Below, one piece after another: positions 6,069 to 21,214 of a DNA stretch of 64,000 bases. A program made the position numbers and the translations under genes. Origin of the DNA: Candidatus Poseidoniaceae archaeon (GTDB lineage: Archaea > Thermoplasmatota > Poseidoniia > Poseidoniales > Poseidoniaceae); assembly GCA_949372645.1 (NCBI GenBank), contig CASIAP010000011.1, forward strand, positions 62,001-126,000, given 5' to 3'. Every line of letters begins with the position of its first letter. Positions within the stretch are counted from its first letter, which is position 1. The notes beneath the pieces were generated by a model that saw only the letters and a list, made by a program, of their open reading frames with translations, was not told where the DNA came from and did not search any database.

Positions 6069-6105
6069 GACATATCATTTCTATGAAATCGTCGGTTTTT
6101 TACCC
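6069..6105 (+). repeat. Partial copy A of the dispersed 3'-flank repeat
   Basis: GACATATCATTTCTATGAAATC matches, apart from single changes, the first part of the repeat copy at 16427-16550. It is followed by GGT-T-run-ACC in place of the usual GGGTT/AACCC hairpin. It lies about 80 nt after the surface protein stop, in the same orientation. The T-run (about 6093-6099) could also terminate transcription. The stretch 5988-6118 otherwise holds no gene. Confidence 0.6.
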
Positions 6106-6118
6106 AAAATTATTCAAA

Positions 6119-6502
6119 TTATTGGTCTATTTTTTTTACCAACAAACCAATGAGGACCCCAATAACTCCGATTGCGAGTGTAGCTAAGAGTACATATCCT
6201 GCAGCCATAGCTATCCAAATGGAAAAAAGAATCATCAGTCCTCCATCGGTTAAGATTACAATAATTCCCGAAATGATTGCCACCGCTAACAGTGCCCCGC
6301 TGATATAACAGCCCCACTTTACAATGATTCCCAGTAGTAATTTGCCCGTCATGCCTGGCGTTTGGAAGGTTTCTACTTCACCATCTTCATCATCATTATC
6401 CCATGAGAATTCGTCTTCACAGTGAGGGCATTTAAACAATCCGAAATCATCATCATCTAATTCAATATCTTCATCACAATGAGGACATTCAATCTCGACC
6501 AT
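6119..6502 (-). CDS. Zinc-ribbon membrane protein (MVEIECPHC family)
   Basis: A 127-residue protein from the ATG at 6502. It opens with a zinc ribbon formed by two C-P-H-C knuckles (MVEIECPHC ... LFKCPHC) around an acidic EDIELDDDD loop. An acidic linker and two long hydrophobic helices follow, and the chain ends in a lysine-rich tail. The first two codons of a longer frame (6508) are not needed. A TTATT element lies 29 nt upstream of 6502, the same spacing as in its paralogues at 17651 and 20248. Related N-termini also occur at 15843-16077 (truncated) and 17596 (remnant). Such ribbons bind Zn and often act as protein or nucleic-acid contact modules; no function is known. Confidence 0.75.
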   Translation of the reverse strand: MVEIECPHCDEDIELDDDDFGLFKCPHCEDEFSWDNDDEDGEVETFQTPGMTGKLLLGIIVKWGCYISGALLAVAIISGIIVILTDGGLMILFSIWIAMAAGYVLLATLAIGVIGVLIGLLVKKIDQ

Positions 6503-6586
6503 GTTCACTTCTACTCATTGCTGAGGAATAAGGTTTGGGCCGTTTCTAAGTTCAAAGTAAATCTTTCAGGATGATTTTCGATCTCA

Positions 6587-6633
6587 TGGGTTTTGATCTT
6601 AAACCCTTACGACTTCATGAAAACGATATGTTG
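6587..6633 (-). repeat. Partial copy B of the dispersed 3'-flank repeat
   Basis: Read on the minus strand, CAACATATCGTTTTCATGAAGTCG is followed by an inverted repeat GGGTTT...AAACCC. This matches the 5' half of the repeat copies at 16427-16550 and 21088-21214. It begins about 20 nt after the stop codon of the HxlR-type regulator, in sense orientation. Confidence 0.6.
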
Positions 6634-6654
6634 CTCACTGTATTCTGTTAAGAT

Positions 6655-7008
6655 TCAAAGTGATTTGTCTGCTCGATTGAGCACCCATTCAAACATCGAT
6701 TTAAGACTGGGATGAAGTGATATCGCATCTTTGGTAAGCGTATATTCGACTGTAGCCGGGACGGTTGCATAAGCAGTACGTGTGACCAACCCATTGGTTT
6801 CAAGTTCGCCCAATCGTCTTGCAACAGTTGTTGAAGAAGAGTCAACCCTCTTTTTTATTTCAGAAAAACGCATTGGCGTAGGATCACAATTCATAATGTA
6901 GAGAATACTGAGCATCTTTGATTTTGAAAGTAAAACCAGTAAATCATCAACATGGCTTCGGGCCGATTCGCACATTGATTCAATGCGCAGTGATTGTACT
7001 TGAGACAT
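6655..7008 (-). CDS. HxlR-family winged-helix transcriptional regulator
   Basis: A 117-residue protein from the ATG at 7008 (six fewer residues than the longest frame). The winged helix runs from the KSKMLSILYIM helix through RFSEIKKRV, the recognition helix SSTTVARRLGELE and the wing GLVTRTAYATVPATVEYTLT. The R-F-S-E-I motif and the V-x-Y-x-L-T wing are typical of HxlR/DUF24 regulators, which often respond to redox or electrophile stress. It is transcribed divergently from an NADPH:quinone-reductase-like gene across about 108 bp, so it probably controls that gene and itself. Only one Cys, near the N-terminus, could act as a redox switch. Confidence 0.85.
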   Translation of the reverse strand: MSQVQSLRIESMCESARSHVDDLLVLLSKSKMLSILYIMNCDPTPMRFSEIKKRVDSSSTTVARRLGELETNGLVTRTAYATVPATVEYTLTKDAISLHPSLKSMFEWVLNRADKSL

Positions 7009-7115
7009 AGAGATCCTAAGTATCATTTTGGTATTAAGGCACAGGTTACAACATTGTTACAAAAGAACACTTCTGCCACTTTTTGGTTTATGTACGGGAG
7101 TACTTAGCCGGGGTC

Positions 7116-8219
7116 ATGATGGCACATCCAAACGGCAAAACAATGAACAGCATCGGTTTCACGAAATACGGCAAACCCGCCCAATTGAAGAAAATGGAAG
7201 TGCCTTATCCACATGGATTTGATGCATCTAAAAATGTAGTCATCAAGGTTCACGCATCTTCGGTTAATCCAGTGGATAAAATACTGCTGTCAGGAGATTT
7301 GAAACTTGTTTTCCCTGTTGCTGAATTCCCTCATGTCATTTCTTATGATGTTGCAGGAGTTGTGGAAAAAGCCGATAGCAAAGGAGTGTTTTCGGTAGGA
7401 CAGCCTGTATTTGCTCGCGTATGGAGTGATGTAGATGATGACAAGAAGACACCGTGGTTTAGAGGTACAATGGCTGAATTTTGTGTTGCACGTACATCTG
7501 ATGTTGTCACTAAGCCAGACAATATCAGTTTCGAGGAAGCCGCATCTATCCCACTCGCAGGAATGACTGCATTCCAGGTACTGAAAGAATCTGGGCTGAA
7601 AGAAGGAGACTCTGTCTTCATCTCCGGAGGGGCTGGTGGAGTTGGCACAATGGCCATTCAATTGGCAAAGCATGTATTCAAAGCAGGACTTGTAGTTACA
7701 ACTGCATCAAAAGGCGAAAAGATGGATTTGTGTAAGAGCCTTGGTGCAGATGAAGTCCTCGATTACAAATCAGAAAGCTTTGTCACAGCATATGGTAACG
7801 ATGACAGTACGAAATTCGATGTTTGTTTTGATACAACTGCAGAAGGTCTTGAGATGGTCAAAATCATCAAAGAAGGGGGACGAATTGTTTCTATTGCAGG
7901 AACGCCTACTTTAGATGAAATTAGGAGAATCGGAGGAACTGCTTGGATCCTCAAACTCTTCTTGAAGCGGAAGGTAAAGCGGAAGGAGTACAAAGCTGCT
8001 CAATCTATCAACGCTAACTGGACCTACCTTTTCCTTTCACCAAGTCATGAGGATCTCTCAACGCTTGCAAATCATCTCGAAAGCGGTGTGATTAAGCCTG
8101 TGCTCGACGGTGTTTGGGACTTCCATTCAGAAGATTCCGAAGATGGCTGGCAGGGGGCGTTCAATCGCTCTTTTTCGGGTCGAGCAAAGGGCAAATGTGT
8201 GGTAAAAATTACATCATAA
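7116..8219 (+). CDS. Zinc-independent MDR oxidoreductase (quinone reductase-like)
   Basis: About 367 residues of the medium-chain dehydrogenase/reductase superfamily, close to NADPH:quinone reductases and reticulon-4-interacting-protein-1-like enzymes. The GroES-like domain shows VHASSVNPVDK. The Rossmann fold carries SGGAGGVGTMAIQLAK, then SLGADEVLDY, as in zeta-crystallin-type enzymes that reduce quinones or enones with NADPH. The structural and catalytic zinc ligands of alcohol dehydrogenases are absent. Starts are possible at 7116, 7119 or 7143; 7116 sits about 30 nt after a TTTATGTA element. The divergent HxlR regulator suggests induction by a redox-active or electrophilic compound. Confidence 0.88.
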   Translation: MMAHPNGKTMNSIGFTKYGKPAQLKKMEVPYPHGFDASKNVVIKVHASSVNPVDKILLSGDLKLVFPVAEFPHVISYDVAGVVEKADSKGVFSVGQPVFARVWSDVDDDKKTPWFRGTMAEFCVARTSDVVTKPDNISFEEAASIPLAGMTAFQVLKESGLKEGDSVFISGGAGGVGTMAIQLAKHVFKAGLVVTTASKGEKMDLCKSLGADEVLDYKSESFVTAYGNDDSTKFDVCFDTTAEGLEMVKIIKEGGRIVSIAGTPTLDEIRRIGGTAWILKLFLKRKVKRKEYKAAQSINANWTYLFLSPSHEDLSTLANHLESGVIKPVLDGVWDFHSEDSEDGWQGAFNRSFSGRAKGKCVVKITS

Positions 8220-8421
8220 GCATTCTCTGAACAGATTGTAATGCCCTCTCCATCCCACGCGTCAGGTCCCTTTCTTGAGTGGAGCGTCAGTATCGCCCAC
8301 TGAATCCCCTTGTTTCGGAAAAAAATGCAAAGGGGGTTCCGATAAACACTTGCAACTTATCCAAAGCGATTTGTTTAAGATTCAGACAAATACATTATTA
8401 TTATCTGACTTATACCATGCA

Positions 8422-8742
8422 AATATGCAGTTCACAGTAGTATTTGATATGAAATATAATCTTGGGGATGGAAGTTTTAGCATTAGATATCACCCTGCAC
8501 CCTATTGGTTGCACGGCGATAAAGGGATACAAAATAGTAAACTTTCATCAGGACCAACTTATACAAGAGGCTCTCTTAAGCCATTATTAATACATGCAGA
8601 ATTAAACAATGAGACATTAGATTCTAGAAAAGTGATAGTAATTATCCAGAAAGCAGGATATGGGGGTTCAGAATGTTTAAACAATTTAATTCAAGATTTG
8701 AGAGCAGAAAACTTTGATCCTATTACAATCGGAATGGACTGA
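8422..8742 (+). CDS. Hypothetical protein, AT-rich orphan
   Basis: About 106 residues from the ATG at 8422; the frame stays open upstream to a TTG at 8275. It is visibly more AT-rich than its neighbours (TTA, ATA and AAA codons are common). No motif is recognised: the chain is a mix of strands and one helix with a SLKPLLIHAEL segment. AT-rich TATA-like sequence (about 8393-8406) fits a leaderless start at 8422. The composition suggests recent acquisition. It could be a cassette gene of the repeat-rich region. Confidence 0.4.
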   Translation, partial: NMQFTVVFDMKYNLGDGSFSIRYHPAPYWLHGDKGIQNSKLSSGPTYTRGSLKPLLIHAELNNETLDSRKVIVIIQKAGYGGSECLNNLIQDLRAENFDPITIGMD

Positions 8743-8763
8743 TTTAGTGAACAACACTTACAA

Positions 8764-8795
8764 CACCCTCGCGTGAGACGCTTGTCGTAAGGGTG
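8764..8795 (+). terminator. Hairpin CACCCT/AGGGTG after the orphan gene
   Basis: CACCCT (8764-8769) pairs with AGGGTG (8790-8795). The loop contains a smaller GCGT/ACGC stem. It lies about 20 nt after the stop at 8742. Similar ACCC/GGGT hairpins occur in other spacers of this region. It may be a terminator or 3'-end RNA structure. Confidence 0.4.
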
Positions 8796-8881
8796 AACAG
8801 AGGGTAATTGCAAAAAATATGACTTTTTTAAGGTTTAAATTTTATCCATTAGGTTTTTAAAAATAATAGATTAGTAATCTC

Positions 8882-9019
8882 ATGCGCGTTATGCTTGCTA
8901 ACTTTGTTGCCTTAATGTTAATGTTACTTTTGGTTGCTCAAACCCCTCAAGACATTATGGAAGAGTACAATGGGTGTTCAGCCCCCCAGTACAGAAGTTA
9001 CCGTTGTGGTCCTATGTGA
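8882..9019 (+). CDS. Possible 45-residue secreted peptide overlapping the repeat
   Basis: An ATG at 8882 opens 45 codons ending in TGA at 9017-9019. Residues 1-20 (beginning MRVMLANFV and ending VAQ) look like a signal peptide. The mature part of about 25 residues begins TPQDIMEEYNGCS and ends RCGPM, with two cysteines. AT-rich TATA-like sequence (about 8858-8869) is correctly spaced for a leaderless start. The second half is encoded by repeat copy C, which at other sites is not consistently coding, so the peptide may be a chance frame. This is the main content of the 394-bp spacer 8743-9136. Confidence 0.35.
   Translation: MRVMLANFVALMLMLLLVAQTPQDIMEEYNGCSAPQYRSYRCGPM
8938..8995 (+). repeat. 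Copy C of the dispersed 3'-flank repeat
   Basis: The first 44 bp (8938-8981) are identical to the reverse complement of 16472-16515, and the match continues with small changes through the CCCCAGTACA stretch. The 5' part seen in copies D and F (CATATCATTTCCATGAAATC) is missing here. It lies downstream of the orphan gene ending at 8742, in sense orientation. Confidence 0.85.
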
Positions 9020-9136
9020 CTACAAGGGCCCCCGTTGTATACACAGAATCGTCCATCCCTGTGAAAATCGACTTTAATTCTCAAATCAATTAAATTTGGA
9101 TGGCATACTAATAAGTAATTCCATGGTGGAGAAATC

Positions 9137-12100
9137 ATGAAGCGAATTACGAAGACACTTTTACTCAGTTTCCTGATGATTGTTCTCGGACTCTCAGCAG
9201 CCACCAGTGGCATGAATGAGGTTGCTGAAAGCTCGCAGTTACCTGAGTTAGGAGAAGCAAGTAACGTCATTCTGCCCGCATCTCAACTCAATGAACCTGG
9301 TTTTCAAGAAGGATCGATTTTCACCGATACCACCCTCTCTTCGGGAGGTTCCTGCCAAAATGCAATCGCAATGTCAGGAATATTCTCATGTCACAATAGC
9401 GTAACTTCACACACCTGCGCCATCCTTGACAACGGTTCCGTCTCATGTTGGGGATGGGGCTCTTCTGGCCAATTGGGCTACGGTGGAAATTTTAACAAAA
9501 ATACACCTACTCTCACCAGTGACTTAGGAATAGGTCGTACGGCTGTAGCGATCGCTTCGGGAGATGGACATACCTGCGTCATTCTTGACAACGGTGACGT
9601 CTCATGCTGGGGTTGGGGTTTTTACGGACAATTGGGTAATGGCGGAACTTCCAACAAAAACTCACCGACACCCACCAGCAGTCTTGGGACGGGTCGTACG
9701 GCTATAGCCCTCTCTTCGGGAGACTTTCACACCTGTGCCATTCTTGACAACGGTGACGTCTCATGTTGGGGACGGGGTTTTTACGGACAATTGGGTAATG
9801 GGGGGACTTCCAACAAAAACTCACCGACACCCACCAGCAGTCTTGGGGCGGGTCGTACGGCTGTCGCTCTCTCTTCGGGAAATGAATATACCTGTGCCAT
9901 TCTTGACAACGGTGAAGTCTCTTGTTGGGGAGAAGGTTATTACGGACAATTGGGTAACGGAGTAACTACGGAAACTACACCAACGCTCACAAGCAGTCTA
10001 GGGACGGGTCGCACGGCTGTAGCGATCGCTTCGGGAGGTGCACATACCTGCGTCATTCTTGACAGCGGTGAAGTCTCTTGTTGGGGATTAGGCACTTTCG
10101 GACAACTAGGCAATGGTGCGACATCCAACAAAACAACACCAACGCTCACAAGCAGCCTAGGAACGGGTCGCACGGCAGTAGCGATATCTTCGGGAGGTGC
10201 ACATACCTGCGTCATTCTTGACAACGGTGACGTCTCTTGTTGGGGATTCGGTACTAACGGACGACTAGGTAATGGTGGAACATCCGACAAAACAACTCCA
10301 ACGCTCACAAGCAGCCTAGGAACGGGTCGCACGGCAGTAGCGGTCTCTTCGGGAGGTGCACATACCTGCGTCATTCTTGACAACGGTGAAGTCTCTTGTT
10401 GGGGATACGGTAATGCCGGACAATTGGGTGATGGGGGAACCTCCGACAATACAACGCCAACGCTCACGAGCAGTCTTGGCACAGGCCGAACCACTGCCCT
10501 TTCTGAACGAGACTTTAACGGGAATGGTGTATTGAATATACTCGAACAAAAAATCTTGGATGTAACGGGTAAAAGCATTGCTGGCGGTGCTAGCTTACAG
10601 TGCGTCATCCTTGACAATGGTAAAGTCTCTTGTTGGGGGTGGGGCGTTTACGGACAAGTGGGTAATGGGGGAACCTCCTCCAAATCCTCACCTACTCTCA
10701 CCAGTAGTTTGGGTTCAGGTCGAACTGCGATTGCTGTTTCTACTGGATACGCCCATGCATGTGCCATTCTTGACAACGGTTTGGTTTCATGTTGGGGACA
10801 GGGGAACTCTGGCCAACTGGGTAACGGGGGAACCTCCTCCAAATCCTCACCTACCCTCACTAGTAGCTTGGGTTCAGGTCGCACAGCAATTGCGATTAGC
10901 TCAGGTTATCAGCACACCTGCGCCCTTCTAGACAACGGTGCCGTCTCATGCTGGGGAGAAGGAAGTGATGGACGATTGGGCAACGGGAATGAACAGGATT
11001 CTCTCAATCCGTGGCCGGTTAGCAGCTTTGGAACTGGCCGAACAGCGGTTGCAATAAGCGTTGGCAGTTTTCACAGCTGTGCTCTCCTTGACAATGGCGA
11101 CGTCTCATGTTGGGGTAAGGGGAGCGATGGCCAGTTAGGTAATGGAGGAACTTCCATGAAAACCTTACCAACACTCACCAGCAGCTTCGGAACAGGCCGT
11201 ACACCCGTTGCCATCTCTTCTAGCAGTTATTACAACTGCGTCATCCTCGACAATGAAGCTGTATCTTGCTGGGGTCAACTGAGTTATGCGCTACCTCAAA
11301 GAAATTCACCAACATCTCCTGGCAGCTTCGGAACAGGCCTCACAGCAAAGGCAATCGCTGTGGGTTCTGAACATGCCTGTGCAATCTTAGATAACGGATT
11401 AGTGTCCTGCTGGGGAGAAAATAGCCATGCTCAATTGGGCAATGGAGGTACATCGCGCAAAAGCACTCCCACCTCAACTAGCAGTCTAGGTACAGGTCGC
11501 ACAGCAATTGCGATTAGCACAGGTTATCAGCACACCTGCGCCGTCCTTGACGATGGTAATGTTTCATGTTGGGGACGGTCAAATTCTGGACAATTGGGTA
11601 ACGGAGGGACATCCACGAAATCCACACCAACGCTCACCAACAGCCTTGGAGTGGGTCGTACCCCATTGTTCATTGATGCTGATGCAGACGGAGATGGGGC
11701 TTTTGACCACACGGAAGCATTTCCAGGAAATCCAATCCGATCCATTGCCTGTAATGCAGGACAATACGGCCGATACGTTTGCGTGGATGCAATGTTGGGC
11801 AAGTATGTGCCCTCATCAGGCTCGATGTATGCTAATGATGCAAGTGCAGGGTACTATGTGGATCAAACTGGTCAATCCACTCAATCGGCTGCAGATGCAG
11901 GATACTATGTTGATTCCACTTTGGGAGTAGGACAAACATCTCAAACTGCTTGCTTAGCAGGAACCTACAATCCAAACACTGGTTCTACGAGTCCTTCTGC
12001 TTGTGGAGATGCTGATGCAGGATACTATGTTGATTCCACTTTGGGAGTAGGACAAACATCTCAAACTGCTTGCTTAGCAGGAACCTACAATCCAAACACT

Positions 12101-14875
12101 GGTTCTACGAGTTCTTCTGCTTGTGGAGATGCTGATGCAGGATACTATGTTGATTACAACTTGGGATCAGCACAAACATCTCAAACTGCTTGCTTAGCAG
12201 GAACCTACAATCCAAACACTGGTTCTACGAGTCCTTCTGCTTGTGGAGATGCTGATGCAGGATATTATGTTCCAACACCAGGACAATCCAGCCAAACTGC
12301 TTGCTTAGCAGGAACCTACAATCCAAACACTGGTTCTTCGAGTTCTTCTGCTTGTGGAGATGCTGATGCAGGATATTATGTTCCAACACCAGGACAATCC
12401 AGCCAAACTGCTTGCTTAGCAGGAACCTACAATCCAAACACTGGTTCTTCGAGTTCTTCTGCTTGTGGAGATGCTGATGCAGGATATTATGTTCCAACAC
12501 CGGGACAATCCAGCCAAACTGCTTGCTTAGCAGGAACCTACAATCCAAACACTGGTTCTTCGAGTTCTTCTGCTTGTGGAGATGCTGATGCAGGATATTA
12601 TGTTCCAACACCGGGACAATCCAGCCAAACTGCTTGCTTAGCAGGAACCTACAATCCAAACACTGGTTCTATTCGCTCAGTGGACTGCCTTGAATCCATT
12701 GTCGGATATTATGTTCCAACATCGGGTCAATCCAGTCAAACAGCATGTGCAGCAGGAACCTATCAAGCCGCAACTGCTCAGAGTTCTTGTGATGATGCTG
12801 ATCTGGGCTACTACGTTCCAGCAACAGGTCAATCAACTCAAACAGAATGTGTAATTGGAACGTATCAAACATTAGCAGGACAGAGTTCCTGTGATGAGGC
12901 AGATGCTGGATACTATGTTGATCAAATAGGTCAATCCAGTCAATCAGCATGTGCAGCAGGAACCTATCAAGAAGATACTGGGCAAGATGGTTGCGACGAT
13001 GCAGAGCCAGGTTTTTACGTCGATCAAACTGGTCAAACTGACCAAACTCGCTGTGAAGTTGGAACCTATCAAGCCTCAACTGCTCAGAGTTCTTGTGATG
13101 ATGCAGATGCTGGATACTACGTTGACCGAACTGGTCAAACTGACCAACTTGAATGTGATTATGGAATGTATCAAGTAGACACTGGACAAGATGACTGTGA
13201 TGATGCAGATGCTGGATACTACGTAGACCAGATGGGTCAATCCTCTCAAACACAATGTCCAACTGGATACACGACAATTACAATACGCAGCACCTCAGGT
13301 AACCAATGCCTTTCTGACTATGATGGAGATACAATTGTCGATGCGCTGGACAGCGACACTGATGGAGATGGAGTCCTGGACTTAATGGACCAATGTCTAA
13401 CTTCAGACTTCCATTTGAGTGCTGATAACGACAGCGATGGTTGCGATGATGCAGACGAAGATACAGATGACGACAACGACGGAATACTCGATGTCAATGA
13501 TCAGCTTCCACTTGACCCTACAGAAAATGAAGATACTGATGGTGATGGAACAGGTGACAATGTTGATACAGATGACGATGACGATTCAGTCCTCGATGTA
13601 GATGATGCCTTCCCTCTTGATTCAACAGAATCTGTCGATACGGATGATGATGGAACTGGTGATAATGAAGACACTGATGATGACAACGATCAAGTTCTCG
13701 ACGCTGATGATGCTTTCCCACTTGATTCAACAGAATCAGTCGATACCGATGATGATGGAACTGGTGATAATGCTGATACAGATGACGATGACGATTCAGT
13801 CCTCGATGTAGATGATGCCTTCCCTCTTGATTCAACAGAATCTGTCGATACGGATGATGATGGAACTGGTGATAATGAAGATACTGATGATGACAACGAT
13901 CAAGTTCTCGACGCTGATGATGCTTTCCCACTTGATTCAACAGAATCAGTCGATACCGATGATGATGGAACCGGAGATAATACAGATATGGATGACGATG
14001 GTGATGGTGTGTATGATCTTCTCGACGCTTTCCCACTTGATTCAACTGAATCTGTTGATACCGATAATGATGAAACCGGAGACAGTGCTGATACAGATGA
14101 CGATGACGATTCAGTGCTCGATGCAGATGATGCCTTCCCACTTGATTCAACAGAATCCGTAGATACTGACAATGATGGAACTGGAGATAATGCTGATACC
14201 GATGATGATGGTGATGGCGTCTCTGATACCAACGATGCTTTCCCACTAGATTCAGCTGAATCTGTTGATACAGATGATGACGGAACGGGCGATAATGCTG
14301 ATACCGATGATGATAATGATTCAGTTGTTGATGCAGATGATGCATTCCCACTTGATTCAACAGAATCCGTTGATACCGATAACGATGGAACTGGCGATAA
14401 TACTGATGCCGACGATGATGGTGATCGTGTCCCTGATGCAGAGGATGCATTTTCACTTGATGCCACAGAATCAATCGACACTGATGGAGACGGAACTGGT
14501 GACAATACCGATCTCGATGACGACGGTGACAATGTTGCAGACATCGACGATGATTTACCATTCGATGCCACAGAATCAGTTGATACTGATCACGATGGAA
14601 TTGGCAATAATGCAGATACTGATGATGATGGTGATGGAGTTTCAGATTCAAGCGATGATTTCCCTGAAGATTCAACGGAATGGGAAGATGCCAATGGTGA
14701 TGGACGTGGTGACAACAACGATCCTCTGAGCAGTTTCGAAAATGCTCAGCAAGAACCGGCTCTTCCAATATTAGGATTTGGAGTAGTAATCGCCTTCATG
14801 GTGATGTTGTATCGTGCTCAGCCCCCTTTGAAGCAAGAAAAAAAATCTTTCGTTGATATTTCTGAAGAAGAGTGA
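9137..14875 (+). CDS. Giant surface protein: RCC1 repeats, Cys-rich repeats, TSP3-like Ca-binding repeats
   Basis: A 1912-residue protein. Residues 1 to about 24 form a signal peptide. Residues about 88-840 contain 14 RCC1-type repeats, each with C-x-I-L-D-N-G-x-V-S-C-W-G and GQLGNG, expected to form one or two seven-bladed propellers. One spacer between repeats 7 and 8 holds a short NGNGVLNILE stretch. Residues about 868-1388 hold 14 GYYV...C...GTY units resembling GCC2/GCC3 or ephrin-receptor-like Cys repeats. Residues about 1393-1861 hold 12 Asp-rich units of 35 residues (DTDDDGTGDN ... AFPLDSTESVD) like thrombospondin type 3 Ca-binding repeats. A final hydrophobic helix (about 1874-1895) and an acidic-basic tail anchor the chain. 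The ATG follows GGTGGAG. The likely role is a calcium-stiffened extracellular adhesin or binding stalk. No enzyme domain is seen. Confidence 0.88.
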   Translation: MKRITKTLLLSFLMIVLGLSAATSGMNEVAESSQLPELGEASNVILPASQLNEPGFQEGSIFTDTTLSSGGSCQNAIAMSGIFSCHNSVTSHTCAILDNGSVSCWGWGSSGQLGYGGNFNKNTPTLTSDLGIGRTAVAIASGDGHTCVILDNGDVSCWGWGFYGQLGNGGTSNKNSPTPTSSLGTGRTAIALSSGDFHTCAILDNGDVSCWGRGFYGQLGNGGTSNKNSPTPTSSLGAGRTAVALSSGNEYTCAILDNGEVSCWGEGYYGQLGNGVTTETTPTLTSSLGTGRTAVAIASGGAHTCVILDSGEVSCWGLGTFGQLGNGATSNKTTPTLTSSLGTGRTAVAISSGGAHTCVILDNGDVSCWGFGTNGRLGNGGTSDKTTPTLTSSLGTGRTAVAVSSGGAHTCVILDNGEVSCWGYGNAGQLGDGGTSDNTTPTLTSSLGTGRTTALSERDFNGNGVLNILEQKILDVTGKSIAGGASLQCVILDNGKVSCWGWGVYGQVGNGGTSSKSSPTLTSSLGSGRTAIAVSTGYAHACAILDNGLVSCWGQGNSGQLGNGGTSSKSSPTLTSSLGSGRTAIAISSGYQHTCALLDNGAVSCWGEGSDGRLGNGNEQDSLNPWPVSSFGTGRTAVAISVGSFHSCALLDNGDVSCWGKGSDGQLGNGGTSMKTLPTLTSSFGTGRTPVAISSSSYYNCVILDNEAVSCWGQLSYALPQRNSPTSPGSFGTGLTAKAIAVGSEHACAILDNGLVSCWGENSHAQLGNGGTSRKSTPTSTSSLGTGRTAIAISTGYQHTCAVLDDGNVSCWGRSNSGQLGNGGTSTKSTPTLTNSLGVGRTPLFIDADADGDGAFDHTEAFPGNPIRSIACNAGQYGRYVCVDAMLGKYVPSSGSMYANDASAGYYVDQTGQSTQSAADAGYYVDSTLGVGQTSQTACLAGTYNPNTGSTSPSACGDADAGYYVDSTLGVGQTSQTACLAGTYNPNTGSTSSSACGDADAGYYVDYNLGSAQTSQTACLAGTYNPNTGSTSPSACGDADAGYYVPTPGQSSQTACLAGTYNPNTGSSSSSACGDADAGYYVPTPGQSSQTACLAGTYNPNTGSSSSSACGDADAGYYVPTPGQSSQTACLAGTYNPNTGSSSSSACGDADAGYYVPTPGQSSQTACLAGTYNPNTGSIRSVDCLESIVGYYVPTSGQSSQTACAAGTYQAATAQSSCDDADLGYYVPATGQSTQTECVIGTYQTLAGQSSCDEADAGYYVDQIGQSSQSACAAGTYQEDTGQDGCDDAEPGFYVDQTGQTDQTRCEVGTYQASTAQSSCDDADAGYYVDRTGQTDQLECDYGMYQVDTGQDDCDDADAGYYVDQMGQSSQTQCPTGYTTITIRSTSGNQCLSDYDGDTIVDALDSDTDGDGVLDLMDQCLTSDFHLSADNDSDGCDDADEDTDDDNDGILDVNDQLPLDPTENEDTDGDGTGDNVDTDDDDDSVLDVDDAFPLDSTESVDTDDDGTGDNEDTDDDNDQVLDADDAFPLDSTESVDTDDDGTGDNADTDDDDDSVLDVDDAFPLDSTESVDTDDDGTGDNEDTDDDNDQVLDADDAFPLDSTESVDTDDDGTGDNTDMDDDGDGVYDLLDAFPLDSTESVDTDNDETGDSADTDDDDDSVLDADDAFPLDSTESVDTDNDGTGDNADTDDDGDGVSDTNDAFPLDSAESVDTDDDGTGDNADTDDDNDSVVDADDAFPLDSTESVDTDNDGTGDNTDADDDGDRVPDAEDAFSLDATESIDTDGDGTGDNTDLDDDGDNVADIDDDLPFDATESVDTDHDGIGNNADTDDDGDGVSDSSDDFPEDSTEWEDANGDGRGDNNDPLSSFENAQQEPALPILGFGVVIAFMVMLYRAQPPLKQEKKSFVDISEEE
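12001..12660 (+). repeat. Tandem 120-bp and 111-bp coding repeats
   Basis: Units beginning TTGTGGAGATGC start at 12001, 12121 and 12241 (120-bp period), then repeat with a 111-bp period from 12241 to about 12660. Units differ by only a few bases. They encode the GYYV...ACLAGTYNPNTGS Cys-rich modules of the giant surface protein. Near-identity at DNA level indicates recent duplication or gene conversion. Confidence 0.93.
13564..13972 (+). repeat. 210-bp tandem duplication in the Asp-rich repeats
   Basis: The block 13564-13762 recurs at 13774-13972 with about one visible mismatch. Each block covers two 105-bp TSP3-like units. It lies in a longer array of 105-bp units running from about 13480 to 14720. 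Confidence 0.9.
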
Positions 14876-14912: not shown

Positions 14913-14933
14913 AGGGTAATTCCATAATACCCT
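14913..14933 (+). terminator. Hairpin AGGGTA/TACCCT after the giant gene
   Basis: AGGGTA at 14913-14918 pairs perfectly with TACCCT at 14928-14933 across a 9-nt loop, 38 nt after the stop at 14875. There is no strong T-run. It is of the same ACCC/GGGT type as other spacer hairpins in the region. It may act as a 3'-end structure. Confidence 0.4.
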
Positions 14934-15051
14934 TGTAAACAGATTTGGGATATGGATGGGTTCTCTAAGGGCCATATTGATGCGTACCGATACGACATAC
15001 ACTTCACTCGTGAGTATACGTGGGCTCCATTGAACGATTCCACTCTTCGTT

Positions 15052-15842: not shown

Positions 15843-16077
15843 TTAGGAGTAGGCTTGCCAATCTGAGTTAAGCACAAACCACATAAAGAATATCATCGAT
15901 AAGAGTAGGACAAAACCGACGATTCCGATTCCAATTTTTACCCCGCTAATCACTGGAGGATTGGTTGTGTACTCGTTTGAAACATCTTCATCATCTTCCC
16001 AGGTGAATTCCTCATCACAATGTGGGCAATCAAATAATCCAAAAGCATCATCCTCTAATTCAACATCTTCATCACAA
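15843..16077 (-). pseudogene. Zinc-ribbon membrane protein, 5' end lost
   Basis: The frame encodes the second half of the MVEIECPHC family: CDEDVELEDD, LFDCPHCDEEFTWEDDED, a linker and one hydrophobic helix. It closely parallels the intact gene at 6119-6502. Identity to that gene ends at position 16077, exactly at the second Cys of the first knuckle. Beyond this the frame stays open to 16142 but only reads antisense through the neighbouring coiled-coil gene. The start codon, promoter and first Cys of the ribbon are therefore gone. It is probably a dead remnant, although three of the four Zn ligands remain. Confidence 0.7.
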
Positions 16078-16341: not shown

Positions 16342-16426
16342 TGCATTCAGTGTATTGAATAATTAAATATGGATAGTTCGAATGGGTCTATCCGAATACC
16401 TATTGAAACGGATTTCGAATTTCAAA

Positions 16427-16550
16427 GGGCTTTCAGTGCGTCCTTCGATAGGCTAGGGAGTGTACTGGGGACTGAACACCCATTGTACTCTTCCATAATG
16501 TCTTGAGGGGTTTGAAAGAACCCTTGCGATTTCATGGAAATGATATGTCG
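16427..16550 (-). repeat. Copy D (full length) of the dispersed 3'-flank repeat
   Basis: Read on the minus strand, it starts directly after the stop codon of the lipoprotein gene at 16551. It contains CGACATATCATTTCC, a GGGTT/AACCC hairpin, the 44-bp core shared with copy C, then CCCCAGTACACTCCC and GACGCACTGAAAGCCC. Copy F at 21088-21214 aligns over the whole length. A 37-codon frame is open here, but it is not kept in copy F. Repeat boundaries are approximate. Confidence 0.85.
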
Positions 16551-17417
16551 CTACTGTTGATTTTGTTCATTGAGAACAGAGTCTGCAATGACTCGAATGT
16601 CTGTGTCCCACTGAGTAAATTCCGGCATATCCAAAGGTTCGAAACCATGGACTGCATGAAGCCAAATGAGGGTTCCTGTGTCGATTGTCAATTGCCCTGC
16701 ATGACCTTTAGCGTCTGTGAAAATTGAAGTTGGCTTAGGTCCGCTTAATTTCTCAATGTCACCTTCCAATTCACCTGCTTCAAACATCTCGCGTAATTCA
16801 TAGGCAATTGCTCCATGATGGAAAGTGAAGATATCAGCATCAGGATAGTCGGAACTCAAGTTTGTTCCAAGGCTAGCCCATGATCTATATGCTTCATCTG
16901 AGCCATCTCTAAATTCGCTTGCGTTATCATAATCTTCTGGATAATCTTTCCAGGGCAGGGCTAAACCGATTCTAGTGTTCGCATTCCGGTCTAGTGCATA
17001 TTCAGTGAAATTCCAAATTGCTTCATCCGACTGAGCGCCTGATTCAATAAATTCTATACTACAACAAATCATGATTAGAACATCAATTTCTCCTGTATCA
17101 AGGAACTCTTTGATACGCTCGCTGTCCGCTTCATCAGCCCACAGAGCATCTGGAGCCCCGTTCGGCCCTCCACTAAATTGAGCGTAAGCGGCGTGGTTAG
17201 ACATTCCGGATGTATGTGCATAATCTTCAAGCAATTTTGCAAATTGTCTACCGAAACTATGGCCAATATAGAGAACATTGTAATCTTCCGAGTCCACATC
17301 CTCTGGTGGACGATCAATCATGTCAAGTTCTCCATCACCTTTCCCATTACGCAAACAACCCGATAAAGAGACTGTAAACATCAAAACAACAAGAAAAAGT
17401 GCAACCTTTTTGTTCAT
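16551..17417 (-). CDS. Secreted lipoprotein, SGNH-hydrolase/DUF4886-like
   Basis: A 288-residue protein from the ATG at 17417. The leader ends in the lipobox S-L-S-G-C with the modified Cys at residue 21. The mature part opens with YNVLYIGHSFGRQF, which resembles the GxS block of SGNH/DUF4886 proteins (usually I-G-N-S-F). The Ser of GHSF would be the nucleophile. Later blocks include MICCSIEFIESG and a C-terminal DAKGHAGQLT that could supply the catalytic His. The substrate is unknown; esterase activity on sugars or lipids is typical of the fold. Its 5' flank holds hairpins and a broken zinc-ribbon start, and its 3' end abuts repeat copy D. Confidence 0.7.
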   Translation of the reverse strand: MNKKVALFLVVLMFTVSLSGCLRNGKGDGELDMIDRPPEDVDSEDYNVLYIGHSFGRQFAKLLEDYAHTSGMSNHAAYAQFSGGPNGAPDALWADEADSERIKEFLDTGEIDVLIMICCSIEFIESGAQSDEAIWNFTEYALDRNANTRIGLALPWKDYPEDYDNASEFRDGSDEAYRSWASLGTNLSSDYPDADIFTFHHGAIAYELREMFEAGELEGDIEKLSGPKPTSIFTDAKGHAGQLTIDTGTLIWLHAVHGFEPLDMPEFTQWDTDIRVIADSVLNEQNQQ

Positions 17418-17477
17418 GATTCTTCTAAGTAATCGTTCGTATATGGAACTTCTGTGACAGTGGTGTAACCCTTCAGA

Positions 17478-17509
17478 TACCCTCTGTACAGGCATATCAT
17501 GAGAGGGTA
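17478..17509. repeat. Perfect 8-bp inverted repeat TACCCTCT/AGAGGGTA
   Basis: TACCCTCT at 17478-17485 pairs with AGAGGGTA at 17502-17509. It lies between the divergent lipoprotein and zinc-ribbon genes. It is followed at 17525-17540 by CTCACGCGTGGGTAT, which resembles the tail of repeat copy E. It could be an operator or a leftover of the repeat family. Confidence 0.5.
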
Positions 17510-17550
17510 CGGAAGCGACATACATCTCACGCGTGGGTATTTGAAGGGTA

Positions 17551-17610
17551 TTGCCGGCTCAATAGTTATACCATTAGGGCATACAGAACTCGGTATGGTT
17601 GAAGTGGATA
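17551..17610 (+). pseudogene. Remnant of a zinc-ribbon gene: promoter plus first codons
   Basis: GCCGGCTCAATAGTTATACC is a near copy of the conserved promoter. Its TTATA starts at 17566, about 30 nt before ATGGTTGAAGTGGA at 17596, which reads M-V-E-V-D, like the M-V-E-V-E start of the intact zinc-ribbon gene at 17651. The match then stops and the next promoter begins. The frame ends after 12 codons. This looks like a zinc-ribbon gene deleted down to its promoter and first five codons, in tandem with an intact one. Confidence 0.5.
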
Positions 17611-17630
17611 CCGGGTCAAGATTTATACTC
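17611..17630 (+). promoter_or_regulatory. Archaeal promoter, conserved BRE/TATA motif
   Basis: ACCGGGTCAAGATTTATACT is present. TTATA begins at 17624, 27 nt before the ATG at 17651, predicting a leaderless mRNA. It has the same motif and spacing as at 3361 and 20208. Confidence 0.75.
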
Positions 17631-17650
17631 TAATTGCTGTATTTTTGAAT

Positions 17651-18352
17651 ATGGTAGAGGTGGAATGTCCATTTTGCACTGAAACCATTGACCTTGGTAG
17701 TGATTCGACTGGGGCATATGAATGCCCTTATTGTAATCAAGAATTTGAATACGAGTCTAGTAATTTCTGGGAAGAGCAACTCGATAAGAAGTCTGGTCGG
17801 GAAATCGGAAAATCACCGGGAGAACGAGACGATAACAAGCAAGCAACTCTTCAGATTAAGGAAAGTCCCTCCATATTGGGTCTTGTATTTATGTGGGGTT
17901 TCACCATTTTATGGTGTACTGGTTCTCTTTTCGTAACGGTGATCATTGGTTCCCTGGTAATGTCTGACTTAGATACGAATGATTGGACGCCGGTAGATGG
18001 AGTTGTGACAAATAGTTCGGTCTCATCTCGTCAGTCAGAAGGTTCAATGGTATATTGTCTAAATGTTGAGTATGAATACACAATTGATGGAACGACTTAC
18101 CAGGGAGATAAGGTCAGTTACAGTTCTGATGCCTCCTGTGATTCATTGTCAAAAAATTCCGATGAAGATTATCCAGAAGGTAAAGAAATCACAGTATATG
18201 TCAATCCAAGCAACCATCGTGAGGCCGTACTCGAGACTGGATTATCGGGTGTAGATTTTTTCACTTTCTGTATCTGTTTATTCCCATTAGTTGGATTAGT
18301 TCTGCTCTATTACTCTGTAAGTCAAACTTTTAGTAAATCTAACAATCAGTGA
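17651..18352 (+). CDS. Zinc-ribbon membrane protein with DUF3592-like domain
   Basis: A 233-residue protein. The start at 17651 is set by the promoter spacing and by the family N-terminus MVEVECPFC; a TTG two codons earlier is not needed. A zinc ribbon of two C-P-x-C knuckles (residues 6-9 and about 25-28) is followed by a charged linker and a hydrophobic helix. An extracytoplasmic DUF3592-like beta domain then runs from WTPVDGVVTNSSV through VEYEYTIDGTTY to VYVNPSNHREAVL, and a second helix closes the chain. DUF3592 domains are of unknown function and often sit in membrane proteins. It is a paralogue of the N-terminus at 6119 and 20248 with a different C-terminal half. Confidence 0.75.
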   Translation: MVEVECPFCTETIDLGSDSTGAYECPYCNQEFEYESSNFWEEQLDKKSGREIGKSPGERDDNKQATLQIKESPSILGLVFMWGFTILWCTGSLFVTVIIGSLVMSDLDTNDWTPVDGVVTNSSVSSRQSEGSMVYCLNVEYEYTIDGTTYQGDKVSYSSDASCDSLSKNSDEDYPEGKEITVYVNPSNHREAVLETGLSGVDFFTFCICLFPLVGLVLLYYSVSQTFSKSNNQ

Positions 18353-18364
18353 GAAATCATCTTA

Positions 18365-18556
18365 TCAACTCCTTGCGACTTGTTGCGTAGCCGGATGAAA
18401 TGTCTCTTTTTTTACCTCGAGAAGAATACCGACGGTAGCCTCGGCCTGACCCACTGCAAGCCCATAATACCGGGTTTCAAAATACAGTGCACCTTCGGAT
18501 GAACCCATCGTATCTATCCGAAAGCCATTAGTTAATGCAACGAACTGGTTATTCAA
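18365..18556 (-). pseudogene. Possible gene remnant in the 366-bp spacer
   Basis: A 63-codon frame (GFRIDTMGSSEGALYF ... ETFHPATQQVA) has protein-like composition. It has only a TTG start, an in-frame TGA just upstream and no promoter. It may be the 3' end of a decayed gene; I do not recognise the family. The rest of 18353-18718 has an ACTCACTTGTGAGT palindrome near 18570 and the promoter region of the next gene. Confidence 0.25.
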
Positions 18557-18718
18557 CAGACCCTTGGAAACTCACTTGTGAGTTGAATGGGCTTTGAGCA
18601 TGAACGCTTGCAGTCAAGCATTACGATGGTATATCGATTGTAATCTAACCAAACACATCATATAGTAAAGTCATCAAAATGAAACTATTGGTGTTTGTTT
18701 GAAGGGAGGATTACAACT

Positions 18719-20104
18719 ATGAGGGATGCTGAAAAGGAACCCAGTTCCGAACCACTTGAGAAATATCGGCCATGGACAAGAAACCAACTTGGAGAATTGG
18801 TGAATAAACACCCAGAATTCTCAGAGGTATTGGAAGATGTACAAATGGCGTCGCGGGTATTTCCATTTCGTCTTTCAACCCATGTGATTGACAATCTGAT
18901 CAAATGGGATAATCTCAGGGAGGACCCCTTCTTTCACTTGCTCATTCCGACCTTAGATATGCTTGAAGAGGGCCATCGTGAAGCTTTACAAGAGGTGTGT
19001 CTCAGCGGCGATGAGGCAAGAATCACCTCTGTAGTCAATACCATTCGGGCTGATTTGAATCCTCATCCAGCGGATCAGATGACCTTGAACACACCAGATG
19101 AGGGGGACAACCTCAATGGTGTTCAGCACAAGTATCCAGAGATTGTTCTGTTGTTTCCATCTGCCGGTCAGACCTGTCATTCCTATTGCACCTACTGTTT
19201 CCGCTGGGCGCAATTCATCGGTGATTCAGATTTGAAATTCGCACAGAAGGAGGCGGGGTATTTCTTCTCTTATCTACAGGAACATGAAGAGGTAACAGAT
19301 GTACTTGTCACGGGTGGAGACCCGATGGTGATGCGAACGAAGATGCTTCAAAAATACTTGGAGCCGTTCTGTGATGCGGAATTTTTGCCCCATATCAATA
19401 CCATCAGGTTTGGAAGCAAAGCCTTGACATTCTGGCCGAAACGCTTCACTGAAGGTGAAGATTCGGATAATTTACTGGCCTTGTTCCGCCGCCTAATCGC
19501 TGGCGGAAGGCATGTTGCATTCATGGCACATATCGGGCATCCTAGAGAATTGGAACCCCCCTTATTCAAGAAGGCAGTGGAACGGATACAAAGTACCGGC
19601 GCTGTGATTCGCTCTCAGGCCCCCCTCATCGCTGGATTCAATGATTCGGCTGACCTTTGGCTACAAAAGTGGAAACGAGAAGTCAACTTAGGAATCATTC
19701 CTTATTACATGTTCATCGCAAGAGATACTGGTGCACAAAATTACTTCAAAGTATCACTTTCAGATTCATTTAAAATTTATCAAGAAGCGGTGTCCAAGAT
19801 CACCGGCCTCGCAAGAACTGTTCGTGGACCCTCGATGTCCTGTAGCCCTGGTAAAGTTGCTATCGATGGAATCTCAGAGATTGATGGAGTCAAAGCCTTC
19901 GTGTTGAGGTTTATTCAATGCAGGAATCCAGAGTTAGTAGGGCGTCCATTCTTCGCCAAGTTCGATAAACATGCAGCATGGTTTGATGAACTTGAGCCAA
20001 TTGATGGGCAAGTATTACCTTGGGATTCAAACGGGCGATTGAAGTTGCCATCACCTCTCTTGCGCGATGAGTCGCTTCCATTAATCCACCATCAAACCCT
20101 CTAG
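18719..20104 (+). CDS. Radical SAM protein, lysine 2,3-aminomutase family
   Basis: A 461-residue protein. The ATG at 18719 follows a strong GGGAGG site; a TTG at 18695 lies upstream of it. The family is shown by N-terminal helices (LGELVNKHPEF), then Y-P-E-I-V-L-L and the radical SAM motif TCHSYCTYCF (C-x3-C-x2-C). VTGGDPMVM follows as the SAM-binding GGDP motif, and later IPYYMF. In lysine 2,3-aminomutase the PLP lysine lies in a PGGGGK loop; here the matching place reads SCSPGKVAIDG, so a Lys is present but the glycine loop is shortened. The reaction may be amino-group migration on lysine or another amino acid, for example to make a beta-amino-acid osmolyte, but the substrate is open. No acetyltransferase partner (AblB) is visible. 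Confidence 0.82.
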   Translation: MRDAEKEPSSEPLEKYRPWTRNQLGELVNKHPEFSEVLEDVQMASRVFPFRLSTHVIDNLIKWDNLREDPFFHLLIPTLDMLEEGHREALQEVCLSGDEARITSVVNTIRADLNPHPADQMTLNTPDEGDNLNGVQHKYPEIVLLFPSAGQTCHSYCTYCFRWAQFIGDSDLKFAQKEAGYFFSYLQEHEEVTDVLVTGGDPMVMRTKMLQKYLEPFCDAEFLPHINTIRFGSKALTFWPKRFTEGEDSDNLLALFRRLIAGGRHVAFMAHIGHPRELEPPLFKKAVERIQSTGAVIRSQAPLIAGFNDSADLWLQKWKREVNLGIIPYYMFIARDTGAQNYFKVSLSDSFKIYQEAVSKITGLARTVRGPSMSCSPGKVAIDGISEIDGVKAFVLRFIQCRNPELVGRPFFAKFDKHAAWFDELEPIDGQVLPWDSNGRLKLPSPLLRDESLPLIHHQTL

Positions 20105-20124
20105 TTTTCTTTGTCTTTGATTCG

Positions 20125-20196
20125 ATGGGTGTTCAGTCCCTCAGTAAACTGCCTACCCACGCTACTGGCGTCTCATGCAAGGGTGTCGCGTGGGTA
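20125..20196 (+). repeat. Copy E (3' part) of the dispersed repeat with 9-bp hairpin
   Basis: ATGGGTGTTCAGTCCCTCAG followed by TAAACTGCCTA matches the distal half of copies D and F. TACCCACGC (20154-20162) pairs perfectly with GCGTGGGTA (20188-20196). It starts 20 nt after the stop of the aminomutase-like gene, in sense orientation, and directly precedes the promoter at 20208. Confidence 0.7.
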
Positions 20197-20207
20197 TTGA
20201 GTGAGTG

Positions 20208-20227
20208 CCGGGTCAAGAGTTATATTC
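20208..20227 (+). promoter_or_regulatory. Archaeal promoter, conserved BRE/TATA motif
   Basis: CCGGGTCAAGAGTTATATTC is present. TTATA starts at 20220, 28 nt before the ATG at 20248. It decides the start of the following gene. Confidence 0.75.
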
Positions 20228-20247
20228 GCGGATTTTCGAGTTCCATC

Positions 20248-21060
20248 ATGGCAATAGTGGAGTGTCCTTCTTGTAACCAAGATTTCGACTTAAGTGATAT
20301 CGAACTAAGTGTACGTAAAAGAGAAACTTATGAATGCCCATATTGCCATAAAGAATTTAGTAATTGGAAATTACTTAGTTTATCTGGAGCTGTTCGACGT
20401 AAAGAGCAAGAGATAGAGCGCCAACGGTTCCAGGCTTCACGCACTGTCCAAAAGTCAAAGGCTTTTCTCAAGTCCCTTGAAAATCGGGATGTTGAGAAAA
20501 AGTTCGAATTTCCTCTACTCGTTGGGAATTTTAAGGCTCGGAGGAGACGACTTGATGCTCTTGGAACATTTGGAATAATAATTATTGTAATTTTTTTCTT
20601 TCTTAGTCGAGGTGTTGAAATATACATTGTACTCCTTCTCTTAGTTGTAATCCCTCTCTTAGTTATCCCAATTAAGGTACTCTATAACGAATTAAAGCGG
20701 TTAAAGTATAGTAAGGAATTCGCAGAAAACACACTCAACCCAGAATATCTCAGAGGGACCGGTTTGGAGATACGCTCAAATTTAAGTGCGGTATTGATTA
20801 CTAAACGGAGAATTCCCCGATATGTATTTGAAAAGAAAGATATCACAAAAATTGTTTTCCATGAAGAAACTTGGATGCATCGGATTGGAAAGGCCGCTAT
20901 TTACGAATTATATGTTCACTTACATGGAGTTCATGCTTTGACTATCTATGGTTTCAATAAAGGGGACTCAGAAGAAATTGTGAGTAAATTAATATCTCTT
21001 TATGATATTGAGTTTCAATATAATGAAGTTCATCATCTTCCTGAACAAAGTGGCAATTGA
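20248..21060 (+). CDS. Zinc-ribbon membrane protein with coiled coil, paralogue
   Basis: A 270-residue protein. The start at 20248 is chosen because the conserved promoter puts its TATA box 28 nt upstream; an in-frame ATG at 20125 lies within repeat copy E. The N-terminus MAIVECPSC plus YECPYCHKEF forms the zinc ribbon. A basic coiled-coil-like stretch (KEQEIERQRFQ) follows, then two hydrophobic helices (about residues 107-145) forming a hairpin. A C-terminal beta-rich domain with LITKRRIPRYVFEKKDITKIVFHE resembles bacterial PH-like domains. The role is unknown; perhaps it senses or organises something at the membrane. Repeat copy F follows 27 nt after the stop. Confidence 0.65.
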   Translation: MAIVECPSCNQDFDLSDIELSVRKRETYECPYCHKEFSNWKLLSLSGAVRRKEQEIERQRFQASRTVQKSKAFLKSLENRDVEKKFEFPLLVGNFKARRRRLDALGTFGIIIIVIFFFLSRGVEIYIVLLLLVVIPLLVIPIKVLYNELKRLKYSKEFAENTLNPEYLRGTGLEIRSNLSAVLITKRRIPRYVFEKKDITKIVFHEETWMHRIGKAAIYELYVHLHGVHALTIYGFNKGDSEEIVSKLISLYDIEFQYNEVHHLPEQSGN

Positions 21061-21087
21061 GTTTAAGTGATGCCTAATATGGATAGC

Positions 21088-21214
21088 CGACAAATCATTC
21101 CCATGAAATCACGAGGGTTTGCCAACCCCCCCCTCAAGACATTATGGAGGAATACAATGGGTGTTCAGTCGGCCAGTACACTGCCTAGCGTATGAAAAGA
21201 CCCACGCAAAGCCC
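21088..21214 (+). repeat. Copy F (full length) of the dispersed 3'-flank repeat
   Basis: It aligns with copy D over its whole length: CGACAAATCATTCCCATGAA, a GGGTT/AACCC hairpin, CTCAAGACATTATGGAGG, CAATGGGTGTTCAG, CCAGTACACTGCC and GACCCACGCAAAGCCC. It lies 27 nt after the zinc-ribbon gene stop, in sense orientation. The coding frames seen in copies C and D are not preserved here. Confidence 0.85.

Follow-up and report, generated by a model that had tools for sequence, protein, structure and literature searches.

What kind of element stands behind one small gene after another in the genome of a marine archaeon? The question is raised by a 64,000-nt stretch, hereafter the window, of a Candidatus Poseidoniaceae archaeon (order Poseidoniales; GenBank assembly GCA_949372645.1, contig CASIAP010000011.1, positions 62,001–126,000), in which a dispersed repeat follows several small, unrelated genes. 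An earlier reading of the window, made without any database search (the sequence-only reading), had offered two explanations: a 3'-end RNA or terminator element, or the recombination site of a cassette-like array. Comparison with related genomes indicates that the repeat is the right-hand end of small mobile gene cassettes, which abut at a two-letter TA. As an explanation of the whole, we consider it probable that the repeat is such an end, joined at TA to its neighbours, and that a small serine recombinase, SR-A, is the candidate enzyme that moves the cassettes. Archaea of Marine Group II are abundant but have not been cultured; to our knowledge, little is known of how they gain and exchange genes.

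The two full copies of the repeat reported previously (16427–16550 on the minus strand and 21088–21214 on the plus strand) are present, as are the four partial ones (at 6069, 6587, 8938 and 20125), and the block shared between opposite strands was measured as 49 nt at 98% identity. The repeat is thus real, but its conserved unit is ~98 bp rather than ~125 bp: conservation among the aligned copies reaches ...AGTACACTGCC.TA, past which they split into a handful of recurring sequences. Comparison of loci shows that the DNA beyond the TA is the start of the neighbouring cassette or other DNA, and not repeat. The partial copies look like decayed cassette ends; those at 6069 and 6587 retain the outer part, the one at 20125 retains the TA-proximal part, and the one at 8938 sits in what looks like a collapsed cassette. 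Four end profiles, introduced below, gave 329 matches (E 0.5) in 994 kb of fetched loci (designated by L numbers) and none in the same DNA reversed, a result that speaks for specificity and not for density, because most of the loci were fetched for carrying repeats. Within the window, searched over its whole 64 kb, all profile matches with E < 0.6 are confined to positions 6069–21255, and ~10 cassettes or remnants span 6.1–21.3 kb. An open frame of the repeat (PQDIMEEYNGCS) was considered as protein-coding and rejected, since in-frame stops in a number of other copies and small insertions or deletions between copies are at odds with a conserved protein.

Two cassette families are distinguished by their ends. 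Alpha cassettes have a left end of type I and, as their right end, the repeat itself, hereafter the core; beta cassettes have a left end of type IV and a right end of type III. III and core are regarded as diverged right-end forms because III reads collinearly with the inverted core, and I and IV appear as two forms of the left end. Seeds for the I and IV profiles came mostly from the sequence that faces a core or III end across a junction rather than from the opposite end of that cassette, and those for IV were chosen by eye as partner sides with a GGGG-CCCC step. A walk from TA to TA yielded 114 intervals of 100–6000 nt (16 shorter and one longer were dropped), among which 37 run between I and core, 29 between III and IV, four between III and core, three between I and III and one between IV and core; none has the same type at both ends, and in 40 at least one end is unmodelled. 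The pairing holds in 66 of the 74 cassettes with both ends modelled (0.1–6 kb). Grouping of homologues reduced 113 intervals (250–6000 nt, the set also used for the homology analysis) to 85, namely 26 III-IV, 24 I-core, three I-III, one III-core and one IV-core, with no same-type pair and with an unmodelled end in 30; the 55 with both ends modelled thus comprise 24 I-core, 26 III-IV and five mixed cassettes, three clusters that combined different pair types having been labelled by the commonest. The 16 short intervals dropped from the walk consist of ten I-I and three IV-IV intervals of 30–31 nt and three others, and the 13 like-end intervals reflect the inner dyad of the left ends. All these counts omit 13 loci that duplicate other fetched stretches, and a few loci may still overlap (e.g., L112 and L114); the ratios of alpha to beta are not population figures, because the loci were mostly fetched for the core or for a serine recombinase. 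Adjacent cassettes have one TA in common, and both orientations are found within one array.

The clean cassettes carry a TA on either side, as would also be left by non-autonomous DNA transposons, either resembling miniature inverted-repeat transposable elements (MITEs) or of the IS630/Tc1 kind, that duplicate a TA target. Judged by the structure of ends and target, such an origin is quite improbable: the left and right ends do not form inverted repeats (I against core, IV against III), the same end type is found at both ends in 0 of the 74 cassettes, and the target is longer than TA, with TACCC on each side of a dyad in the partner sides and rejoined flanks described below.

The same cassette occurs in unrelated surroundings, with homology from TA to TA in the clearest cases. 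Among 113 cassettes there are 18 homologous pairs (at least 75% of both members), six of which are accounted for by a cassette with an SGNH-like gene. Thirteen pairs have no detectable homology within 300 nt on either side, three have part of one flank in common, and in two the flank is too short to test. Three pairs were aligned over their full length (1747/1747 nt at 99.2%, 837/837 at 98.9% and 1116/1116 at 98.3% identity). The longest is the cassette for an HxlR regulator and an alcohol dehydrogenase in L208 and L094, of which the window holds a copy with a decayed end; in the pair of highest identity (L070/L069, 99.5%) the right flank is common to both. The SGNH-like cassette of L072 (Ca. 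Poseidonia alphae; the same stretch as L096) recurs at 98.2% over 1129 nt (98.3% over the 1116 nt of the cassette) in L105, a contig binned as Thalassarchaeaceae whose DNA outside the cassette is unrelated to L072. This homology begins where one repeat ends and stops where the next one ends, and so does that of the zinc-ribbon gene of L073, which recurs in L125 at 98.9%.

Exchange of this kind might be ascribed to passive repeats of ~100 bp and homologous recombination between them, and there are copies flanking many genes, ends that look like core/III hybrids (L124) and a III-core cassette (L157) to recommend it. We nevertheless hold little belief in this explanation: the left junctions of L072 and L105 have only TAC in common before the cassette, with a sharp boundary and different left partners (core and I, respectively), and no cassette of 0.1–6 kb carries a same-type pair of ends. 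Since genes and ends recur as units in unrelated surroundings, neighbours share a TA and the ends are paired, the evidence supports the cassette-like array, the second of the two explanations offered originally.

As to the first, the sequence-only reading had the repeat always in sense orientation to the preceding gene, which fails beyond the window. When genes are called mechanically, the one closest to a right end terminates there in 64 of 106 cases (core, 34/53; III, 30/53), i.e., ~60% are in sense, and it starts there in the other 42; random orientation across the genome, which that reading had named as evidence against itself, is therefore found in part. The sense majority, together with several copies that begin at or just past a stop codon, is what a 3'-end RNA or terminator travelling with genes could produce, but the mixed orientation of the genes, the change of surroundings at TA and the near absence of compensatory pairing (a covariation term of −0.11 over six pairs in 37 aligned III ends; the figure refers to III ends, RNAalifold having returned an empty structure for the core) leave this explanation unsupported and, in our judgement, extremely improbable.

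The composition of the junctions bears on the crossover site. TA begins 260 of the 282 modelled ends (partly by construction) and 109 of 126 unmodelled partner sides, where C occupies positions 3, 4 and 5 in 89, 97 and 89, respectively; the commonest letters of partner sides without a recognised end are TACCC(T/A)(T/C)(T/G)G. In L212 a ~3.3-kb cassette encoding a serine recombinase together with a DNA methylase interrupts AATCAGAGGG.TA.CCCTTTGATT, and in L209 two alpha cassettes interrupt GTTGCATGGG.TA.CCCATTCAAC. When rejoined, the flanks in both loci make up dyads with TA at the centre. In G205 and G194, relatives of the L212 genome, the left flank of L212 is followed by an unbroken dyad, and the DNA beyond differs. 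Long dyads at GGTACC number nine in 1.12 Mb versus 0–1 for each of eight control hexamers, an excess given as an illustration and not used as evidence because eight of the nine lie in loci fetched by a dyad-containing query. In a genus designated g15 (L253, L254, L256, L257, L259, L260), unoccupied dyads similar to GAATCAAAGGG.TA.CCCTTTGATTC recur elsewhere in the genomes, where they may have a role of their own besides that of a target.

Relatives, unlike the window genome, have a serine recombinase within cassettes. SR-A, an enzyme of ~262 aa, is encoded beside the right end and reads inward in nine cases from eight loci, the open reading frame (ORF) starting 92–431 nt from the TA. The neighbouring end is III in L158, L172, L173, L207 (twice), L212 and L214, and core in L208 and L209; in L207 (at 5598) a short divergent ORF separates SR-A from the end. 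From this linkage, SR-A is likely the enzyme that moves the cassettes. Its catalytic domain is N-terminal (Resolvase, PF00239, E 3e-31), and the Recombinase domain is weak in two of three SR-A proteins scanned and absent in the third. The best NCBIfam models (CcrB, XisF and CcrC) score far below their cut-offs (CcrB, 80.8 bits against 900), and relatives in the PDB include a DNA invertase, the TP901-1 integrase and gamma-delta resolvase. All 21 serine recombinases examined retain the active-site motif DRxxR, YxRxS having been a criterion of their selection. Serine recombinases occur in 22 of 140 family genomes, and those of alpha cassettes form one group in a quick tree (branch support of 100 in the Shimodaira-Hasegawa-like approximate likelihood ratio test, SH-aLRT).

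Other serine recombinases were also encountered. A small one designated family B (L159, L160, L161, L174, L176, L223, L225), which begins with MADHIATRKSTFTSAS or a close variant of it, differs little between genera and often lies near contig ends; the only recognised TA end by it is a weak I-type match in L174. Those of L211 and L215–L218, from other clades in the second family, adjoin apparent type I restriction-modification subunits or GIY-YIG-like proteins, and those of L162, L163, L164 and L175, of yet another type, lie in apparently virus-like regions, possibly Charybdis-like elements. In L081 (12431–12617) a different serine recombinase seemingly begins at the contig end, by the left end of an alpha cassette.

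No integrase had been visible in the window, and this extends to the whole window genome (G000; 1.81 Mb in 17 contigs, 83.7% complete) as searched: it has no PF00239 match, and its one Phage_integrase protein, a XerA-like tyrosine recombinase of 365 aa (L140, 1591–2688), is encoded on another contig, C9. Could such an enzyme move the cassettes instead, acting on folded ends in the fashion of integrons? Phage_integrase matches occur in 120 of 140 genomes (family genomes mostly have one strong XerA-like match), the protein of the window genome comes near the archaeal XerA model (190.5 bits; cut-off 220), short inverted repeats are present in the ends, and most cassette-bearing genomes are without SR-A. 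Movement by a XerA-like or another site-specific enzyme is nonetheless unlikely in view of the position of SR-A inside cassettes, the common 2-bp palindromic core and half-site symmetry, which suit serine enzymes, the scarcity of compensatory pairing in the aligned III ends, and the absence of C9 from the contigs on which cassettes were found. An element of the IS200/IS605 kind was also tried and ruled out: Y1 HUH transposases were found in 0 of 140 genomes, 5 of 14 controls being positive.

Several observations weigh against cassettes with paired TA ends that are moved by SR-A. Ends are mixed in eight of the 74 cassettes, and 22 of the 282 modelled ends, two of them in the window, lack the starting TA. 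SR-A is the second gene from the right end in L170, where that end is unmodelled, and in L210; it has no right end in L213, is cut by the contig in L166 and is truncated by a core in L157. The serine recombinases of alpha cassettes amount to two distinct sequences (three rows, two of them identical), and the related clades (L171, L211, L215–L218, L226, family B) have no recognised adjacent ends except a III at L217 (848). SR-A relatives are rare, being found in 32 of 318 genomes of the order (E 1e-15), a count that takes in other serine recombinase clades and fragments; few genomes have SR-A, whereas 68 of 145 genomes have the core and, within the genus, 34 of 39 have III. The window genome, 83.7% complete, has neither a PF00239 match nor an SR-A relative, and many of the surveyed genomes are fragmented metagenome-assembled genomes. 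Finally, searches with joined flanks found no contiguous empty site for L212 (18 genomes) or L209 (nine genomes).

We propose the following mechanism. A cassette has the form TA-[left end]-gene(s)-[right end]-TA, and SR-A, encoded just inside the right end (RE) of autonomous cassettes, would excise it as a circle in which RE is joined to the left end (LE) as RE.TA.LE. The circle would insert at the central TA of a host dyad, ~nnTTGnATGGG.TA.CCCATnCAAnn (proposed sequence, GAATCAAAGGGTACCCTTTGATTC), or alternatively at the TA between two existing cassettes; recombination of RE.TA.LE with X.TA.Y would give X.TA.LE-genes-RE.TA.Y, matching the observed arrays. Cassettes without SR-A, including those recognised in the window, would either depend on an enzyme acting in trans or be stranded. 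In serine recombination a symmetrical central dinucleotide removes orientation, and the palindromic 2-bp crossover proposed here would account for the occurrence of both orientations.

A literature search, largely of journals outside subscription, found no recognisable description of these cassettes. Integrons cross over at the triplet G/TT, attC sites having a conserved GTT, whereas the junctions described here switch at TA/TACC. The cassettes also differ from those of integrons in having two unlike standardised ends each and both orientations per array, and in the candidate enzyme, a serine recombinase; no fixed platform was recognised in the fetched loci, and the one Phage_integrase protein of the window genome, XerA-like as it is, fails as an IntI-type integrase (103 bits with the integron integrase model; cut-off 265). 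The likeness lies in the exchange of cassettes between hosts and, as far as the accessible text of PMC9668308 goes, in tandem arrays of small exchangeable cassettes, each with a recombination end and often without a nearby recombinase, as in integrons and in clusters of attC sites lacking integron-integrases (CALINs). The main text of that account of archaeal integrons has 0 occurrences of Poseidoniales, Thermoplasmatota or Euryarchaeota. The present system would be integron-like in its working and serine-recombinase in its logic.

Elements of the staphylococcal cassette chromosome (SCC) type, moved by CcrA, CcrB or CcrC, include non-autonomous ones in tandem. With these and with serine integrases the cassettes share inverted half-sites around a central dinucleotide (attP/attB half-sites in the available part of PMC3783163), a related catalytic domain and the active-site residues. 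SR-A, however, is about half as long as the CcrB model (542) and is without the long C-terminal recombinase and zinc-ribbon domains, and the cassettes mostly hold one to few genes, have a palindromic TA dinucleotide and belong to two coexisting end families. IS607 combines a small serine recombinase with unlike ends, as do our cassettes, but SR-A falls below the IS607 model cut-off (24.2 bits against 110) and has its catalytic domain at the N-terminus. BOX, repetitive extragenic palindromic (REP) and other mosaic repeats are short, modular, hairpin-rich and intergenic, and REP partners are Y1-type transposases. The resemblance to our repeat is in shortness, modularity, richness in hairpins and intergenic position; here the repeats are paired cassette ends and Y1 is absent, and we know of no BOX- or REP-type repeats acting as paired ends of gene cassettes. 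Charybdis elements are small mobile DNA of the same hosts, circular and virus-like, ~4.6 kb long, with a structural module, methyltransferases and, if integrated (several beside tRNA genes), an integrase or recombinase gene; the accessible portion of PMC12324425 describes no paired TA ends for them.

On balance, we lean towards the view that Poseidoniales have a third route to cassette arrays, beside integrons and SCC-like islands, with two parallel serine-recombinase sets, unlike standardised ends, a palindromic TA and no fixed platform, in which cassettes insert in either orientation at dyads or joints and genes pass between surface-ocean archaea of two or more families. This points to a second enzyme class from which integron-like arrays can arise. 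Recognisable ends make gene exchange in Marine Group II testable, since the long-read metagenomes already available allow cassettes, empty dyads and circles to be counted, and the candidate enzyme, a serine recombinase of very small size with a palindromic crossover, is directly assayable.

Elsewhere in the window genome there are two full copies of the repeat (C5), one nearly full and one partial copy (C2) and an end fragment (C10). A 116-nt query containing one copy matched in 68 of 145 family genomes from seven of 11 genera, at most six candidates having been scored per genome, so that copy counts are lower bounds; full-length matches are mostly 84–95% identical over ~98 nt. Of the 39 genomes surveyed in the genus, 34 have III ends, and the whole window genome has eight such ends. 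A pattern for the repeat centre was found in 44 stretches of named genomes, nearly all titled Poseidoniales, Poseidonia or Euryarchaeota, the outliers being one Thalassarchaeaceae and one contig labelled Deltaproteobacteria. The latter (L125, JAOMAZ010000003.1), from a single-cell genome, has archaeal-looking genes beside a Poseidoniales cassette; transfer between domains was considered and rejected, as its neighbours look like Marine Group II and the genome is probably mislabelled or the cell mixed. A viral origin was likewise set aside: the exact core and III patterns had no match in the viral contig collection, circles not having been looked for directly, and a search there with SR-A gave one relative, at 33%.

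Table 1. Cassette ends, cargo genes and remnants recognised in the window.
Feature	Position	Strand	Basis and remarks
Decayed core end, outer part only	6069..6105	+	Profile match 6069-6095 (E 0.02), alignment; after gene 3651-5987; left array edge
Decayed core end (outer part) of HxlR/alcohol-dehydrogenase cassette	6588..6641	-	Profile, E 7e-5
Cargo of alpha-type cassette: HxlR regulator, 6655-7026; zinc-type alcohol dehydrogenase, 7083-8219	6655..8219	- (HxlR), + (dehydrogenase)	Pfam PF01638, PF00107
III-type end	8282..8349	+	Profile; degenerate junction, GA for TA
I-type end	8764..8804	+	Profile; degenerate junction, CA
45-codon chimeric ORF, signal-peptide-like start continuing into core end	8881..9018	+	ORF, start comparison
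Partial core end, abutting IV end at 8999	8934..8998	+	Profile; TA ~8998-9000
IV-type end (beta)	8999..9042	+	Profile, E 0.007 (0.0005 in window alone)
1912-codon repeat-rich gene	9137..14875	+	ORF, repeats, flanking ends
Weak III-type end	14926..14986	-	Profile, E 0.004; TA 14985-14986
Weak I-type end	14985-15019		Profile, E 0.13; across TA 14985-14986
III-type end abutting core	16382..16455	-	Profile; TA 16454-16455
Full core (first full copy), right end of alpha cassette	16454..16550	-	Profile, E 4e-32
SGNH-like lipoprotein gene (putative name), cargo	16551..17420	-	Homologous cassettes; no Pfam match at 0.001
I/I junction, two left ends back to back	17468..17548		Profile; around TA 17508-17509
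Putative zinc-ribbon membrane protein gene, cargo	17645..18352	+	ORF
III-type end	18436..18543	+	Match of model R1 at G000:C11:80436-80543; profile, E 4e-6 in window
Cargo gene	18695..20104	+	ORF
Core end cut to TA-proximal 33 nt	20123..20155	+	Profile; TA 20154-20155
I-type left end, next alpha cassette	20154..20194	+	Profile
Putative zinc-ribbon membrane protein gene, cargo	20249..21060	+	Homologous cassette
Full core (second full copy), right end of alpha cassette	21088..21187	+	Alignment, profile
III-type end, last recognised cassette	21186..21255	+	Profile

The features of the array in the window are given in Table 1. The HxlR/alcohol-dehydrogenase cassette at its left edge is 97.2% identical, over 6588–8246, to that of L094, which has a full core. 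The 45-codon ORF looks like the scar or remnant of a collapsed alpha cassette, its start resembling the starts of other genes (e.g., G047:C7:2608), and the 1912-codon gene is the probable cargo of a beta cassette reaching from the IV end at 8999 to the III end at 14986. Homologues of the SGNH-like cassette occur in L012, L072 and L105 at 69–72%, and the cassette with the second zinc-ribbon gene has a homologue in L079 at 82%, with homology in neither flank. The product of the cargo gene preceding the shortened core presumably resembles lysine 2,3-aminomutase.

Cargo beyond the window was scanned in 85 proteins, comprising 83 of the 99 representatives of cassette protein families and two further proteins. 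Pfam (1e-5) recognises 37 families in these, and 24 of the 25 listed occur in one member each; among those listed are aldo/keto reductase, MFS transporter, MBOAT, DNA methylases, Rce1-like protease, mechanosensitive channel, GST, PLD-like and HxlR families. Of 67 PADLOC families, all 25 that are listed belong to methylase models.

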